This document shows, one piece after another, positions 51,824 through 57,398 of a stretch of DNA of 64,000 nt. A model generated the notes under the pieces. The model had not been told where the DNA came from. It worked only from the letters and a program-made list of their open reading frames with translations, and made no database searches. The stretch covers positions 38,630 to 102,629 of the forward strand of contig NW_005178421.1 in assembly GCF_000341285.1 (NCBI RefSeq). Direction: 5' to 3'. A program made the position numbers and the translations under genes. Source of the stretch: Galdieria sulphuraria. Taxonomy: Eukaryota; Rhodophyta; Bangiophyceae; Galdieriales; Galdieriaceae. How positions within the stretch are numbered: position 1 is the first letter of the stretch; every line of letters begins with the position of its first letter.

Positions 51824-53161
51824 TCAAAAAATTACAACTGAAAGAAATGGACATTTCAAAGCTAGTCTTAGTGCAATAATTCCTTCAAGTACAGGACACT
51901 TTGAAAAGAAGAAACAATCTACTGGTTCCATATCGAGTGATCCAAGAAGTATCTTTTCTAAAGGAGAAATAGACAATAGCTCATTGAAGATTCCAAGAAA
52001 TATTCTTGGAATCAGTATTTGAAAAGTATTCTCGTCAATAGGATATCGATATAATCTCATTTCTGTAACAGCATCATATAAAAAATATTCCGAGGTCAAT
52101 CTGTCATATACTTTAAACGGTATACGATAGAGCGCCATCATTAAAAGTACATCAAAAACACTTCTTCCATCCTCGTCTAGAATCGATAGTTTTGTACAAA
52201 TGGTTCAGCACAAATTCTTCGGAAGTCACTTTCATTTGAAAGGCTGGTTTCTCATTTCCACATAATTCAAAAGCATATTCATTGTACAAATAAACAAACC
52301 AGGAACTCCACCTATACATTCCAATAATGAATCTGCCAACTCATTTACTGAAGATGACGAACTACATAAGATATCACAAACTGGTTCTGGACTAGGTGTT
52401 TTTTGAAAGCTCTTTTCAAAAAATTCAACGATATTAGAAGCGTCTATAGGTGATAAAGAAATAAAATGTAGTATAACTTTTGATAGTCCAAAAGCTACAT
52501 AATTCTTAATACTTAAACCCTTGCTTTTTCCCAACAAGAATAAAAAACAAGTCGGGCTCTTTACACAAACTACGAAGAATACCAAAAAAACGATGTATGG
52601 TCGAAACACATCCTTATCAAGTACAAAAAGAGTTCCATTGTATCCAAAACACCAACTTCATCAAAGGCTACCAGAAGATATTGATCGGAAGGAATGCCCA
52701 AAGTCTTCCATAGCTTTGGAATCAGAAATTTTGGATAGGGAGGAATGTGTCTGTAGGCTTCGTCATGCTTCAAGCTGATCGGTACAATAAAAAGTAGACT
52801 GCCAGTTCAGGTTTCGTTTTTCCTCGATGAGGTCTGCGGGCTCTAACTTGTTCAGATCTACATAAAGCAACGAAGCTCTTTTCAAATTGTCCAAAAAAGT
52901 TATCCTCGAAAGGTCCGAAACAACAGTCGACAGGAATTTTCACCAAACCTTCCCACCAACTCCATTTAGTTTTGCTGAGCCAAACATAAGTGGAGGAAAA
53001 GGAATAGTCAAACGATAGTTATGACTACTTGATATAACGCTGAATTGTTTTCGGCTTTTGTAAAGATCACAGAGTATTTTTGTCACTTGAAAAGCATCCT
53101 TTTTTCGATCTACTATATATGAATTGTATCGGTTCGAAGCATTCCTCTCAACCATTGTCAA
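51824..53161 (-). pseudogene. Broken relative of the downstream NTPase/nuclease gene
   Basis: Fragments in several frames on the minus strand line up, in order, with the intact protein at 54879-57398. Near 53080-52985 there is VDRKKD (compare IDRKED) and a P-loop-like MFGSAKLNGVG. A TGA stop interrupts at 52940-52942. The frame continues to about 52765, then shifts; the next frame has a Walker B-like YLLVAFDEVGVL. A further shift, in or near a run of seven T's around 52595, leads to a sensor-like FLFLLGKSKG and the helical GGVPGLFICTMNMLLNYVEMR. More frame changes near 52235 and 52140 precede a C-terminal part to 51824. At least one stop and two or more frameshifts make it a pseudogene. The reading is partial and described only as fragments. 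Confidence 0.65.
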
Positions 53162-54878
53162 GTTTGAATTTCAACAAGAGTTGCAGAATCGTTGCTTTCA
53201 GACATTTTCACTATTGAAATAATGACCTACTGACTTGACTTTGAACAGATTCTTGATTATGTAAAGATAAATAGTATTGAAAATTAATTTTGAGATAAAA
53301 AAGGTAACCATAGGCTCTTTTATGAGCTATAATGCTTTGTGTTCTGCTATTCATATTCAATGCTTTTCAGAGTATGTTGCGAACCTGTTTCTCTCTCATC
53401 TCTTTTAAAAGACGTATGTAGCACCTCATTTACTATTTTGGTTATCGGTGATATGCAACCAAATAACTGTTTTAAAACTTTCATTCTACTTGGTTGTATG
53501 ACACACTGCGCAAGCAAGCTTGAATTCCTTAACATTTACCAAATAAAAGATAGTTTTATACTCGATTCTTTCTCCATTCCAACTGTTTTTGTGAAAAGCG
53601 CATACAATTTTTTTTCAATTTTCTAAAAACTGAGGATATCAGTAACAAAATTATTTTTTACCTAAAAGAAGCATGTGATCCTATAACAATTTGAGATTGT
53701 ACGATCTTCATCGATATTCAAATGAGAAAATTCAAAGTTTCTTCCGTTGCAATATAGCAAGTGAGATAAAAGTTATGCTTTGGATTCTTTTTTCTTACGA
53801 TATACTATGCAACTGTCACAATTTCAGTTTGGATATTTAGAACCGAAGGGAGTTTCCATTTATATCGCAGGCGTTGTTGAAACTCTAGTGGCTCTTGTCA
53901 TAATATCCATTTTGTCTGACAACCAATGATATATATGTATATATTAAGAGATTTAAGAAAAATGATGACATAGTACAACCATTCGACTGAACAATAGCTC
54001 CAGTTTATAGTTCAATTATCACAAGACAAAAAGTTATTGGCTATCATAGCGTATGTCCAAGAATAAATATACAAGCAACTTCCAACAACAAGCATATAGC
54101 CTTCGAAGAACTCGAGTCAACAGATGAAATTAGTGTGCTGTTTGACCTATTGGGTAAAACTTGGCTTTTCGTCAGAATTTCGACGACGATTAAGAGAAGA
54201 AATGCTTATAGAAATTTTTTAAAAATTGAAGAATGTTAATCTCGAAATTTCCGTGCGAGGAAAGGAAACTGTTAAAAATTTCATTTGAGTTCAAAACTGT
54301 CATATGATTGTTCATGTTGCCATCTAGCCAAGATTATTGCAATTCTTGATCTTCAATGCTTCTTATTGTAAACAGATTGTCCATCCAACTATTGGCACAA
54401 GTTTTTATATCCTTAGGTCGTAAAGTCAAGCTACTTATGGTAGATCACTTCAATAAAAGTATTTTTGAGATAGTTTACAGTTCTTTCTCACCCTGAATAT
54501 TTCATTTATCTTCAAAAAATGAAAGATTGAACTCACTTCTTTATGAGATATCATAGTTTAAGAAAGATATATTCCAGTTTCTTACACTACCACTCTTTTA
54601 GACAGTCAAAGCTCTTTCAAGAGATCAAACAGTGCTCTTAGAAAAGTATTTTCACTCTTGCAAATTCATGGATATTTCTATATCGTTTTGCGGTACCCAA
54701 TTATGAGTCCATGTTGTATAGAATAGAGTAACTCAAAGCAGTTTTAAGTACTGTTCTTATATTACAGTAAATGAATGACGTTTTCTTCAATTGATTCAAC
54801 CAAACGATACGTGCGTTAGAAATGCTCTGAATACACAAGATATGAATATTTATTTTTGAGAAGGAAAATAGAACACTT
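53162..54878. other. Gene-poor AT-rich DNA
   Basis: About 1.7 kb between the pseudogene and the intact NTPase gene. One plus-strand frame (53339-53626) is open for 95 codons but lacks an ATG near its start and its composition looks random. No gene or repeat supported. Confidence 0.5.
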
Positions 54879-57398
54879 TCAAGTATGAGGATTATTTTTC
54901 ACATAATTTCTCAAACCAGCAAGAACCTTGACTTGCAAAAAAGTCTCATCGATACCCACTTGCTGTAATACACCCAAACTTATGAATCCAATGTCTCGCT
55001 CTGAAAAAGTCCAAAGGCATTCGTAACATTTACTAGCTTCCTCCTCAGTTAAATGACAATATAGTTTCAAAAAGTTCATCCAATCAAAAGGATTTTGTTG
55101 CACGGAACTAAGTGAAGAAGTGGTTACCTCGTCTCTCTTATATTCCACTTGCATAGCACTTTGAAAACTTTTCATTTGCATCCGATTCTCCTTGCTTGTT
55201 CTCTGTCTTACATTTCGAGCTACTCTTGAAATAACATTTGACTGCCCAGCTTCCAAAGACGAAACATATGCACTGCACATCGACTCAAAGACAGTTTTAC
55301 ACCATACTGAAAAGTCTTTAATGAACTCTCCTCGGCTTGCCTCGCCAATTTTCCTCAAAATTTCGTAATTTTTTATTCCCAAAAATCGTTCAAGGTTCCT
55401 TTGGGAAACAATTACCAGTTGCAGACATGATCGACTACTTTCACTCAAAGTTGACCTCAAAGAATGTTTAGTAACCAAATAACTTACATCTTCAACAATA
55501 TTTTGTTCTTCAACAGAGAAACCTACAGATCGATCATAACTAGTACAAACTACCACCACAAACTGAAAACAAAGTTGAACAGATGAAAGAGATTCGTAAT
55601 TCAAAACGGAAACAACTCCCTTAAAAAATTGTTCTGATTCCTCCTTAATATCGCTTTTCGAAAATCCAGTTTTGTGATAAAATTTGAATGAAAATCCAAC
55701 AACATAACGTGTTTGTCCATTATGGAATACAACATATGCATCAGGGCCACTCGAATTACCATCCTTTGGAACAAAAATACCACAACATTGTAAATAATTT
55801 CTATAATAATCAGAAAATGAACCAGGGACATCTCTCAAGATGGGTATATCATAAGATTTTGTTGATTCCATAGAATAAGAAATATTGTCCTGTTCAATAA
55901 AGGAATCCTGGAAAATTCCTGGAATAGCAGAATGTACAATAGGCGAGGAATTAGAATGAAGAAAAGTTAATAAGCGAAAGCGAAAGATCTTCATAAATAT
56001 AAATTCAAAGAAGACTCCTTTTGCTGTTGCAATGTCGGAAATATAACTAAACGGAGATAAAGGAAAGAATTCACTAGCCTCACGGAAAAATTTATAGCTG
56101 CTATGAGCTCGCAATATAAATTCACAACAACCAATCTTGAATTCGGTGCCCATATCAATCCCGTCAATTCCACAAAATTCACAGTAAAACCCAAAAGTTG
56201 CAACCAAGTCCATCAAATAAGTTGTCGTTCCACATAGAGTAATTGCAAATCCGATTGGAAAAACTGTTCCGAGCTGATAATTCAAAAGGACAAATTGATA
56301 TCGAAGAAGGGTTGCGGAATCTTGTATCTCTGGAATAATAAACGTTCCCGACTCATTTAGTATATCTTCAAAGACACTATCTAATAAGGGTTCCATATTG
56401 TCATCGTTGATAACAGGTTGGGCTTCGTGTTGCATTCTTATCAGTGTTAATAAAGTGTTCCTCACAATCAACGGCATACCTCCTGTCTTCTTTTTCAACA
56501 ATTCTACGAATCGATACCGTAAATCATCTGAGGGCAATAACCAGTCCTTCAAAGACTTTCCATCATAAGCTGCCACCTCAAGATATTCACCAATATCATT
56601 GAGGTTAAAGGGATTCAACCGCAACATATGGAGACTCAAGCCACTCGAGAGGGCATCAGTCCGGCGGGCTGAGATTTCATCGGTTCGACCTGCCAAATAG
56701 ACGATTACCTTTCCTGTAATCAACAAATCACGCAAAACGCGGAAAAACTTCCGAAAAGGTACATATTTTCGGTCAGACTCGATAAACTGTTTCTCGTCGA
56801 GTTCACTATAGTATGTGGTGAGGTAACTCAGGTGGCTAAGTTCGTCTATCATCAAAAATAAATATTGTTTCTGAAATTGTTCGAGAAGATACTGGACAAA
56901 TAAAAAAACACGAGGTTGCTTCATCGCTGCGTCCGTGAATTCTACAATTTCACGGGCGGTCATACCATTACACTCGGCTGTAGCCATAGCTATGTTATAC
57001 ATCAAAGCCTTTCGAAACCTTGGAAAAGGAGCACGAGAAAAACTCTCTCCTAGTTCAAAGCAAACCAACAAAATGTTTTCCGCAAAGTGCTTCCAAGAAA
57101 AAATCTTCGCATCAATTTTTCCCGACGAGCTCTTGTTGAAAACCTCCGTCTCCTTCTGCTCTTTTTCTTCTTCGGCGAATTTTTTTAAAAACTCTAAAAA
57201 ATTGTGACCTACAAAGCTTTTGCCAGCTCCAAAAATATGTGGAGAAAAGGAAGCTGAAGGGCGTATGTTAAAGTCTTTCCCAACTGGAGAAAACTGGTGG
57301 AAATAAGTTCGAAGAATAGAGCAAATATCTTCTTTTCTATCTATTAACGGTACTTTTGTCATTCCAGGCAAACTTATGCGTATCTCTTGACGAGCCAT
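54879..57398 (-). CDS. P-loop NTPase with nuclease-like and SAM-like domains (RHS/Crinkler or archaeal-ATPase type)
   Basis: A single open frame of 839 residues from ATG 57398 (the open frame extends to a TTG upstream). Domains: residues 1-60 lead into a Walker A-like loop IFGAGKS (about 54-60), whose first glycine is not in the usual place; a Walker B-like FLMIDEL (about 182) with a following helix; and a sensor/winged region with GGMPLIVRNTLL (about 325). From about 510 to 620 there is a segment like a PD-(D/E)xK nuclease core (PDAYVVF, then VVGFSFKFY), but the acidic/Gln partner before the lysine is replaced. The C-terminal about 65 residues (WMNFLKLYCHLTEEEA...GIDETFLQVKVL) look like a SAM domain. 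This order resembles eukaryotic RHS/Crinkler-type proteins and also archaeal-ATPase proteins known to be expanded in Galdieria. Function unknown. Confidence 0.7.
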   Translation of the reverse strand: MARQEIRISLPGMTKVPLIDRKEDICSILRTYFHQFSPVGKDFNIRPSASFSPHIFGAGKSFVGHNFLEFLKKFAEEEKEQKETEVFNKSSSGKIDAKIFSWKHFAENILLVCFELGESFSRAPFPRFRKALMYNIAMATAECNGMTAREIVEFTDAAMKQPRVFLFVQYLLEQFQKQYLFLMIDELSHLSYLTTYYSELDEKQFIESDRKYVPFRKFFRVLRDLLITGKVIVYLAGRTDEISARRTDALSSGLSLHMLRLNPFNLNDIGEYLEVAAYDGKSLKDWLLPSDDLRYRFVELLKKKTGGMPLIVRNTLLTLIRMQHEAQPVINDDNMEPLLDSVFEDILNESGTFIIPEIQDSATLLRYQFVLLNYQLGTVFPIGFAITLCGTTTYLMDLVATFGFYCEFCGIDGIDMGTEFKIGCCEFILRAHSSYKFFREASEFFPLSPFSYISDIATAKGVFFEFIFMKIFRFRLLTFLHSNSSPIVHSAIPGIFQDSFIEQDNISYSMESTKSYDIPILRDVPGSFSDYYRNYLQCCGIFVPKDGNSSGPDAYVVFHNGQTRYVVGFSFKFYHKTGFSKSDIKEESEQFFKGVVSVLNYESLSSVQLCFQFVVVVCTSYDRSVGFSVEEQNIVEDVSYLVTKHSLRSTLSESSRSCLQLVIVSQRNLERFLGIKNYEILRKIGEASRGEFIKDFSVWCKTVFESMCSAYVSSLEAGQSNVISRVARNVRQRTSKENRMQMKSFQSAMQVEYKRDEVTTSSLSSVQQNPFDWMNFLKLYCHLTEEEASKCYECLWTFSERDIGFISLGVLQQVGIDETFLQVKVLAGLRNYVKNNPHT

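Follow-up and report, generated by a model that had tools for sequence, protein, structure and literature searches.

The window studied here is a stretch of 64,000 nucleotides from the red alga Galdieria sulphuraria (contig NW_005178421.1, here C55, positions 38630-102629), the right end of which is also the end of the contig. On its minus strand lies a long coding sequence of the Galdieria "archaeal ATPase" family, and the question raised by this locus is what a protein which joins a nucleoside triphosphatase (NTPase), a nuclease-like part and a sterile alpha motif (SAM) domain does in a free-living unicellular alga. Our favoured answer, to which we give a probability of roughly four in ten, is that the gene is part of a subtelomeric repertoire of STAND-type ATPase-nucleases, in which an exchangeable C-terminal SAM domain sets the assembly partner or the target. 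The components of this answer, namely the three domains (in the case of the nuclease, from model and motif), the placement of many copies in subtelomeric positions, the eight tail types, their exchange and their sharing between species, were established by comparison of sequences and models.

54879-57398, minus strand: intron-less coding sequence of 839 residues (ATG at 57398, TGA at 54881-54879), subfamily A of the Galdieria "archaeal ATPase" family

Domains of the predicted protein

The window protein was modelled with AlphaFold2 from an alignment of 88 rows (mean predicted local distance difference test, pLDDT, 72.7; predicted template modelling score 0.65). This alignment, A3, holds 87 of 110 proteins plus the window protein. 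In the model, an ATPase with winged helix fills about residues 10-440. It is followed by a strand-helix nuclease core (about 528-673), by a linker of low confidence (710-769) and, at 773-835, by a domain of five helices. These blocks lie near residues 40-400, 500-640 and 760-839, where an earlier note on this stretch, made from the letters alone, had placed an NTPase, a nuclease-like and a SAM-like part. The note had allowed for a single, unrelated known fold; the predicted folds were recovered instead, the nuclease weakly. The features are as follows, with conservation counted over alignment rows that hold a letter.

56409-57371, minus strand: P-loop NTPase domain, about residues 10-330
57213-57248, minus strand: Walker A FSPHIFGAGKSF, residues 51-62, from conservation in the alignment
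56841-56861, minus strand: Walker B LFLMIDE, residues 180-186, with D185 and E186 in 87/87 rows
56472-56486, minus strand: TGGxP motif, residues 305-309, with G307 in 85/86 and P309 in 85/86 rows
56079-56408, minus strand: helical and winged-helix block, residues 331-440, from AlphaFold2 and the alignment with 2qen
55380-55817, minus strand: PD-(D/E)xK-like nuclease core, about residues 528-673, from AlphaFold2 and motif
55740-55742, 55683-55685 and 55638-55640, minus strand: predicted nuclease residues D553, K572 and E587, respectively
55089-55271, minus strand: linker of low confidence, probably disordered, residues 710-770 (pLDDT below 50 at 710-769)
54882-55088, minus strand: SAM-domain tail of type T4, residues 771-839, from a profile of 16 tails and AlphaFold2

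The Walker A loop had been called unusual, which holds for its first position only. The GxGK[ST] core is retained (G57 in 80/80, G59 in 79/79, K60 in 79/80 and S/T61 in 79/80 rows), as is the DE of Walker B. The TGGxP motif was invariant across seven sequences of four types, and we take it to be the "GxP" motif of STAND proteins. In fold comparisons the NTPase was nearest to the archaeal Walker ATPases 2qen and 2fna, followed by CED-4, TnsC and NLR resistosomes, with MuB and Orc/Cdc6 also near; absence of a fold from these listings excludes nothing. The alignment with 2qen extended to residue 434, and its last part is presumably the winged helix. Both archaeal structures are, we assume, PF01637 (ATPase_2) proteins, archaeal ATPases of the STAND clade. 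The window protein had no Pfam match to PF01637, and its best relative reached 17.6 bits against a gathering score of 33.2. The predicted assignment of the NTPase to the STAND, PF01637-like type is therefore supported by fold rather than by Pfam score.

The nuclease part was modelled with strands at 540-544, 554-559, 563-573 and 608-618 and a helix at 581-601, D553 and K572 being positioned as expected and E587 falling in the helix after the K572 strand. D553 was found in 79/82, K572 in 76/81 and E587 in 80/80 rows. The earlier note was right that the Lys is not preceded by an acidic or Gln residue: position 570, two residues before it, is Ala in 40, Ser in 31, Thr in 8, Gln in 1 and Pro in 1 of the rows, and the window copy reads FSFK. 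We suggest that E587 may stand in place of the missing residue. An Asp and a Lys followed by a Glu one helix later is a layout of active restriction-fold enzymes. Since D553, K572 and E587 are all retained, a non-cleaving protein, as the note had proposed, is not the default reading of the predicted nuclease. As an aside, K572 is replaced by Thr in 4/81 rows and by Glu in 1/81, which hints at copies with a dead nuclease. A Foldseek search with the nuclease slice gave FokI, McrBC, BamHI, Avs3, Cap4 and MspJI among the first ten rows, the best at E 0.026 and none at 0.001. The nucleases of Avs3, Cap4 and HerA-DUF4297 were among these weak matches, as was an Avs4 chain; that a fold is missing from this listing likewise excludes nothing. 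When modelled alone, the slice was poorer than in the whole protein (pLDDT 59).

The tail was modelled as five helices at 773-835, with a block pLDDT of 85-92 up to residue 830. The profile of 16 tails matched 15 PDB rows up to E 1, of which 13 were SAM proteins, including SLA1, ANKS6, SAMD12, Caskin-1, Bicaudal C and ANKS1A; only SLA1 (6e-4) was below 0.001. Searched singly against Pfam at E 1, 6/16 tails matched SAM_2 (best 0.0059) and 4/16 SAM_1 (best 2.4e-5), while the T4 tail of the window protein matched neither. The whole window protein gave only an insignificant LAGLIDADG_3 row in Pfam (E 0.19) and no match in PDB by sequence; the 88-row profile found one SLA1 SAM row in PDB (E 0.054), and a profile across types gave chance rows. 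One weak PADLOC row of P0039 over the P-loop region (E 0.005) was discounted.

Tails were located in 87 of 111 proteins. Three were left out, two because they were truncated or frame-shifted and one because the match was false, and the remaining 84 fell into eight types at a cut-off of 45%, with mean identities of 0.70 within and 0.28 between types. T2, T3, T4, T6, T7 and T8 each occurred in two or three named species, whereas T1 was limited to G. partita and T5 to G. yellowstonensis and two environmental proteins, species labels being the source names of the protein matches. The SAM core was retained across tails. The ratio of nonsynonymous to synonymous change (dN/dS) within types was 0.34 for the tails pooled (0.28-0.50 per type) and 0.62 for the body, so that by this measure tails within a type are under purifying selection; between types, synonymous change was saturated. 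The two presumed SAM contact faces, assigned from the AlphaFold2 helices, differed in charge by type; they were acidic at the mid-loop and basic at the end-helix in T4, T5 and T8, on average the reverse in T1, T2, T3 and T6, and basic and near neutral, respectively, in T7.

Exchange of tails between bodies

In the alignment of subfamily A a conserved body is followed by a variable tail. Among 232 pairs of G. sulphuraria A proteins with differing tail types the identity was 0.79 in the body and 0.28 in the tail. A second subfamily, B, was used for the opposite comparison: 129 A-B pairs of the same tail type had identities of 0.24 in the body and 0.64 (range 0.42-1.00) in the tail. Single pairs make the pattern plain, since P0048 and P0049 are 96% identical in the body and 29% in the tail, while for P0008 (A) and P0049 (B) the figures are 24% and 100%, respectively.

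Of the 76 tails in A3, 75 were present in both trees. On the body tree of these 75 rows tail type changed at least 36 times, where 7 changes would have sufficed had each type arisen a single time. Shuffling of types within species and body (500 shuffles) gave a mean of 40.6 changes and a minimum of 36, so that tails are almost, but not completely, independent of bodies. Placing all A-body tails in one clade was rejected with p-AU 2.9e-7 (approximately unbiased test, 69 columns), a value to be read with the facts that the group was chosen after the data had been seen and that two sets of identical rows were left free. The tail tree, likewise of 69 columns, left 26/59 inner branches open.

The junction was located in DNA comparisons of 27 copies (19 A and 8 B, nine duplicate loci being left out).

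55139-55154, minus strand: switch box ATGCAAGTGGAATATA at the body/tail junction, with three mismatches to the word ATGCAAGTGGAAGAAG

In 18 pairs of B copies with different tails the DNA was 97-100% identical upstream of and across the 16-bp box ATGCAAGTGGAAGAAG, 56-62% identical just past it and 32% inside the tail. Between A and B copies identity was at background (28%) upstream and rose to 86-87% in the box. The box was exact in 11/27 copies and had three mismatches or fewer in 23, and the best chance match elsewhere in the bodies had 5-6 mismatches; the box profile covers 26/27 copies. It is looser in A copies, in some of which the best match is to a similar word nearby. One A-B pair, L004/L029, becomes similar a few bases past the box. 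A-A pairs gave only 0.53-0.72 upstream of the box in the ungapped profile because of length differences; their gapped body identity was 0.91. Body/tail junctions remain in frame.

The 3' flank moves with the tail. In A-B pairs of the same tail type, identity averaged 0.77 in the first 150 bp of 3' flank and 0.71 in the 300 bp after that, where shuffling gave a baseline of 0.55. The shared 3' piece was as short as about 80 bp in some T7 pairs, and in others it reached 413 bp or much more. The 5' flanks, compared where the start was found (13/15 loci tried), were common to many A copies over more than 800 bp irrespective of tail, L021 and L024 being exceptions. As tail and 3' flank travel together and the 5' flanks are independent of tail type, what is exchanged is the tail with the 3' end, and the joint with the body falls at the box or close to it. 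Mixing of tails by mis-assembly is unlikely, because the separate assemblies of four species each hold several tail types.

When the leading 1.8 kb of the 3' flanks was scanned for mechanical open reading frames (ORFs) of at least 50 residues, no convincing cognate or immunity-like gene was found; no ORF was common to all copies of a type, apart from those in flanks that are almost identical and those that open the following family gene. Two candidates were rejected. A 63-residue ORF of L015 and L031 lies in near-identical flanks and is absent from other copies of the type, and a 103-residue ORF of L006, L007 and L035 already belongs to the following family gene, of which it forms the beginning. 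A search with four tail types for other bodies or silent cassettes found fragments only (C11:22319, C25:168006, C38:149372, C38:91 and C17:3), which we read as relics or contig edges. Two of these orphan SAM-tail fragments, C11:22319-22516 and C38:149372-149473, lie away from any listed A or B body.

Chromosome ends and competing explanations

Subtelomeric placement of the Galdieria archaeal ATPase family is on record in the available parts of PMC9812998 and PMC6629376. The accessible text of the latter counts 211 such genes in strain 074W, with no matches beyond the species and a disputed transfer. The family, of some 200 genes, is thus already known in print, with origin and function disputed: it first served as a prime example of archaeal gene transfer and heat adaptation, an example that was later contested, and no function has been agreed upon. 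Our protein search with the window protein returned 47 matches, all from Galdieria, of which 32 were labelled archaeal ATPase, in agreement with the membership proposed in the earlier note, and 15 "hypothetical protein". Some sources label relatives "SAM domain-containing protein" or "archaeal ATPase / transposase", so that the SAM domain as such had already been noticed by automatic annotation. In the protein searches no named relative was found beyond Galdieria and only a few environmental rows besides (in one listing, the best 120 of 137). Such a search can miss distant relatives, because only about 8000 candidates sharing exact words are scored, and the family looks restricted to Galdieria so far. 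A multigene family of archaeal ATPases in Galdieria was reportedly treated by Schonknecht in 2013.

A search of the same genome (12.05 Mb, 102 contigs) for copies gave 56 matching stretches, 53 of subfamily A and 3 of subfamily B. The 53 correspond to 44 places, 43 of them elsewhere in the genome than the window gene. Subfamily B comprised 13 places (query C33:3074-5743), one of which, C17:3-188, consists of a tail alone at the edge of a contig, and the C/D group 65 places (query C33:710-2335); neighbouring rows were merged in all cases and the counts are lower bounds. The B protein was 19-32% identical to the aligned A, C and D proteins. A large family was therefore found where a single-copy housekeeping ortholog had been considered. 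Three observations were made in passing. Residues 1-95 of subfamily A occur in about three forms (MASQ/MTSQ.., MSLNE.. and MQTIY/MESIY.., the last resembling a G. partita protein), and each form occurs with several tail types. The two C/D-type ORFs available in full (L040 and L020) end after the nuclease, without a SAM tail. At C34:18366 a C/D-type match lies within an open frame of 6753 residues, perhaps through masked bases.

The places crowd at contig ends: 41/44 of A, 12/13 of B and 62/65 of C/D lie within 25 kb of one, short contigs being included automatically. Of the A places on contigs of 80 kb or longer, 31/34 did so, against 29% expected (binomial p 5e-14, with copies that are not independent and only copy-carrying contigs counted). 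This placement beside contig ends bears first on the main rival, in which the gene is a selfish or telomere-linked recombination gene: the ATPase-nuclease would act on subtelomeric DNA, start recombination of the ends and spread itself, and the mixed tails would be a by-product or would target chromatin or telomere proteins. Telomere-linked helicases of fungi and a TnsC-TnsA-like pair are models for it. A remark in the available portion of PMC6629376, based on unpublished data, that the family adjoins every telomere is in its favour, as are the nearness of the fold to the DNA-binding TnsC, MuB and Orc/Cdc6 and the 5' flanks common to many A copies. The three A places deeper than 25 kb inside contigs speak against it, and by itself it leaves eight constrained SAM types, shared between species, unexplained. 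We regard this rival as unlikely.

A less probable alternative sees the tails as a mere by-product of subtelomeric recombination: gene conversion would homogenise bodies up to the box, tails would stay with their 3' flanks without any recognition role, and the proteins may be weakly functional or decaying. The joint travel of tail and 3' flank is what end-swapping predicts, the body dN/dS of 0.62 indicates weak constraint, and a residual linkage of tail type to body points the same way. Among the A places, 20/44 are partial or broken, several of them cut by contig ends; against this, 24/44 span at least 760 of the 839 residues, contain no stop and so count as near full-length. The kept SAM core and the lower dN/dS of the pooled tails, the persistence of six tail types in several species and the in-frame junctions also argue against a by-product.

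The published suggestion of a heat or stress ATPase, according to which the alga acquired the gene from archaea and multiplied it since more ATPase helps at high or fluctuating temperature, is very improbable: the available text of PMC9812998 repeats the temperature link and archaeal proteins are the best fold matches of the NTPase, but the portion of PMC6629376 consulted, Appendix 2, reports only a patchy temperature-responsive subset and disputes the transfer, the named relatives in protein searches come from Galdieria only, and the nuclease and the polymorphic SAM tails are left unexplained. Swappable tails are a pattern that resembles a recognition repertoire more than an enzyme for heat tolerance.

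At the locus itself, a chance origin of the ORF is excluded by comparison with its relatives, because many nearly complete copies carry this long frame too, at 66-97% identity; P0001 on contig C49 is 97% identical, and the plus strand over the same interval has 36 stops. The coding sequence starts 6.6 kb from the contig end, and the gene-poor block is the terminal region of C55. The gene had been described as alone in this block. It is indeed the only ORF of at least 150 residues in the ORF list from 48354 to the contig end, but a decayed relative, the sole other family trace within the window, lies 1.7 kb downstream in tandem.

51857-53170, minus strand: decayed relative of C/D type with several frame breaks

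This relative was 56% identical over 429 aligned positions at 51857-53074 (tblastn of P0152; the C/D-group search has rows here too, at C55:90492-91778 in contig numbering), and its N-terminal piece is at 52940-53170. In L022, L024, L006, L007 and L035 a C- or D-type gene starts about 550-750 bp 3' of an A or B gene, head to tail; the window has the same order, but its downstream copy is decayed.

A proposed mechanism and known systems

For the subtelomeric ATPase-nuclease repertoire, the following sequence of events is proposed. In the resting state the NTPase would restrain the nuclease. Upon a trigger, which could be foreign or damaged nucleic acid or an intruder protein, ATP-bound subunits would oligomerise via the AAA+/winged-helix block, and the SAM tail would polymerise with tails of its own type or bind a type-specific partner. 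Only matching subunits would then form an active nuclease cluster, and DNA or RNA would be cut. Chromosome ends recombining in or close to the box would reshuffle tails and maintain many specificities per genome. The mode of action would be like that of Avs or of a SAMD9-type effector, with a swappable specificity tail. A further-reaching version is doubtful in our view: an innate recognition repertoire at many chromosome ends of a free-living unicellular alga, consisting of ATP-switched nucleases with specificity in the SAM tail, whose tail types would be older than the species, held in balance and moved between unrelated bodies at the in-frame box, giving many "codes" per genome for self/non-self or anti-invader recognition.

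Several points weigh against the proposed repertoire. No convincing partner gene came out of the flank search, positive selection on the tails was not seen by dN/dS, very close relatives tend toward the same tail type, and the predicted nuclease follows the NTPase, which is the "wrong" side for a textbook STAND protein. An ATPase-nuclease whose SAM tail is modular and polymorphic across species raises testable questions, namely whether tails assemble with their own type only, whether the nuclease cuts, and what the trigger is.

By source names, subtelomeric placement and lineage restriction the gene is the same as the Galdieria archaeal ATPase family, and the "undescribed system" of the earlier note does not apply to the family as such. 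The term is fair for the exchangeable SAM tails within the literature searched: the available parts of PMC6629376 and PMC9812998 do not mention a nuclease domain, a sterile alpha motif domain or tail exchange for the family, and no listing in the Galdieria literature searched pointed to a nuclease or to tail exchange. What is new here are the exchangeable SAM tails in eight types, the conserved Glu in the predicted nuclease and the NTPase fold nearest to archaeal Walker ATPases. From the archaeal STAND-clade ATPases of PF01637 the window protein differs by its additional nuclease and SAM domain.

The comparison with bacterial polymorphic toxins concerns the mode of exchange. In toxins of the Rhs/CdiA type a constant body is followed by a short conserved junction and a swapped C-terminus, which travels with the 3' flank. 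The Galdieria proteins share the constant body, the conserved junction and the swapped C-terminus with 3' flank, but their variable tail is a SAM domain instead of a toxin, and the flank search showed no convincing immunity-like gene next to it.

With regard to architecture, the likeness in kind to conflict families of NTPase plus nuclease, which the note had drawn, was borne out. Crinkler-RHS (CR) proteins have an NTPase followed by a nuclease of the REase superfamily, and RHS is a multigene family, according to the accessible part of PMC5289972; the window protein lacks a long N-terminal header, and a SAM tail goes unmentioned for CR in that part. No Crinkler or RHS Pfam match to the window protein was obtained at E 1, profiles not having been compared with CRN/RHS alignments. 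The likeness to Crinkler-RHS is probably one of kind and not of descent, with a weakly matched nuclease fold. SAMD9/SAMD9L, as covered by the available text of PMC13245274, are eukaryotic chains with SAM, a STAND-like NTPase and a nuclease, but in the order SAM-Alba nuclease-SIR2-NTPase-TPR-OB, with another type of nuclease and no swapped-tail repertoire described in that text. Avs1-4 and other bacterial STAND nucleases combine an NTPase and a restriction-fold nuclease in one chain, as here; in Avs, going by the partial source at hand, the effector is N-terminal and the sensor C-terminal, whereas in the window protein the nuclease comes after the NTPase and a SAM domain of 69 residues comes last. 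If the recognition reading is true, these genes would constitute a eukaryotic nuclease repertoire diversified by domain exchange, linking Avs-type defence of bacteria with SAMD9 and Crinkler-RHS.

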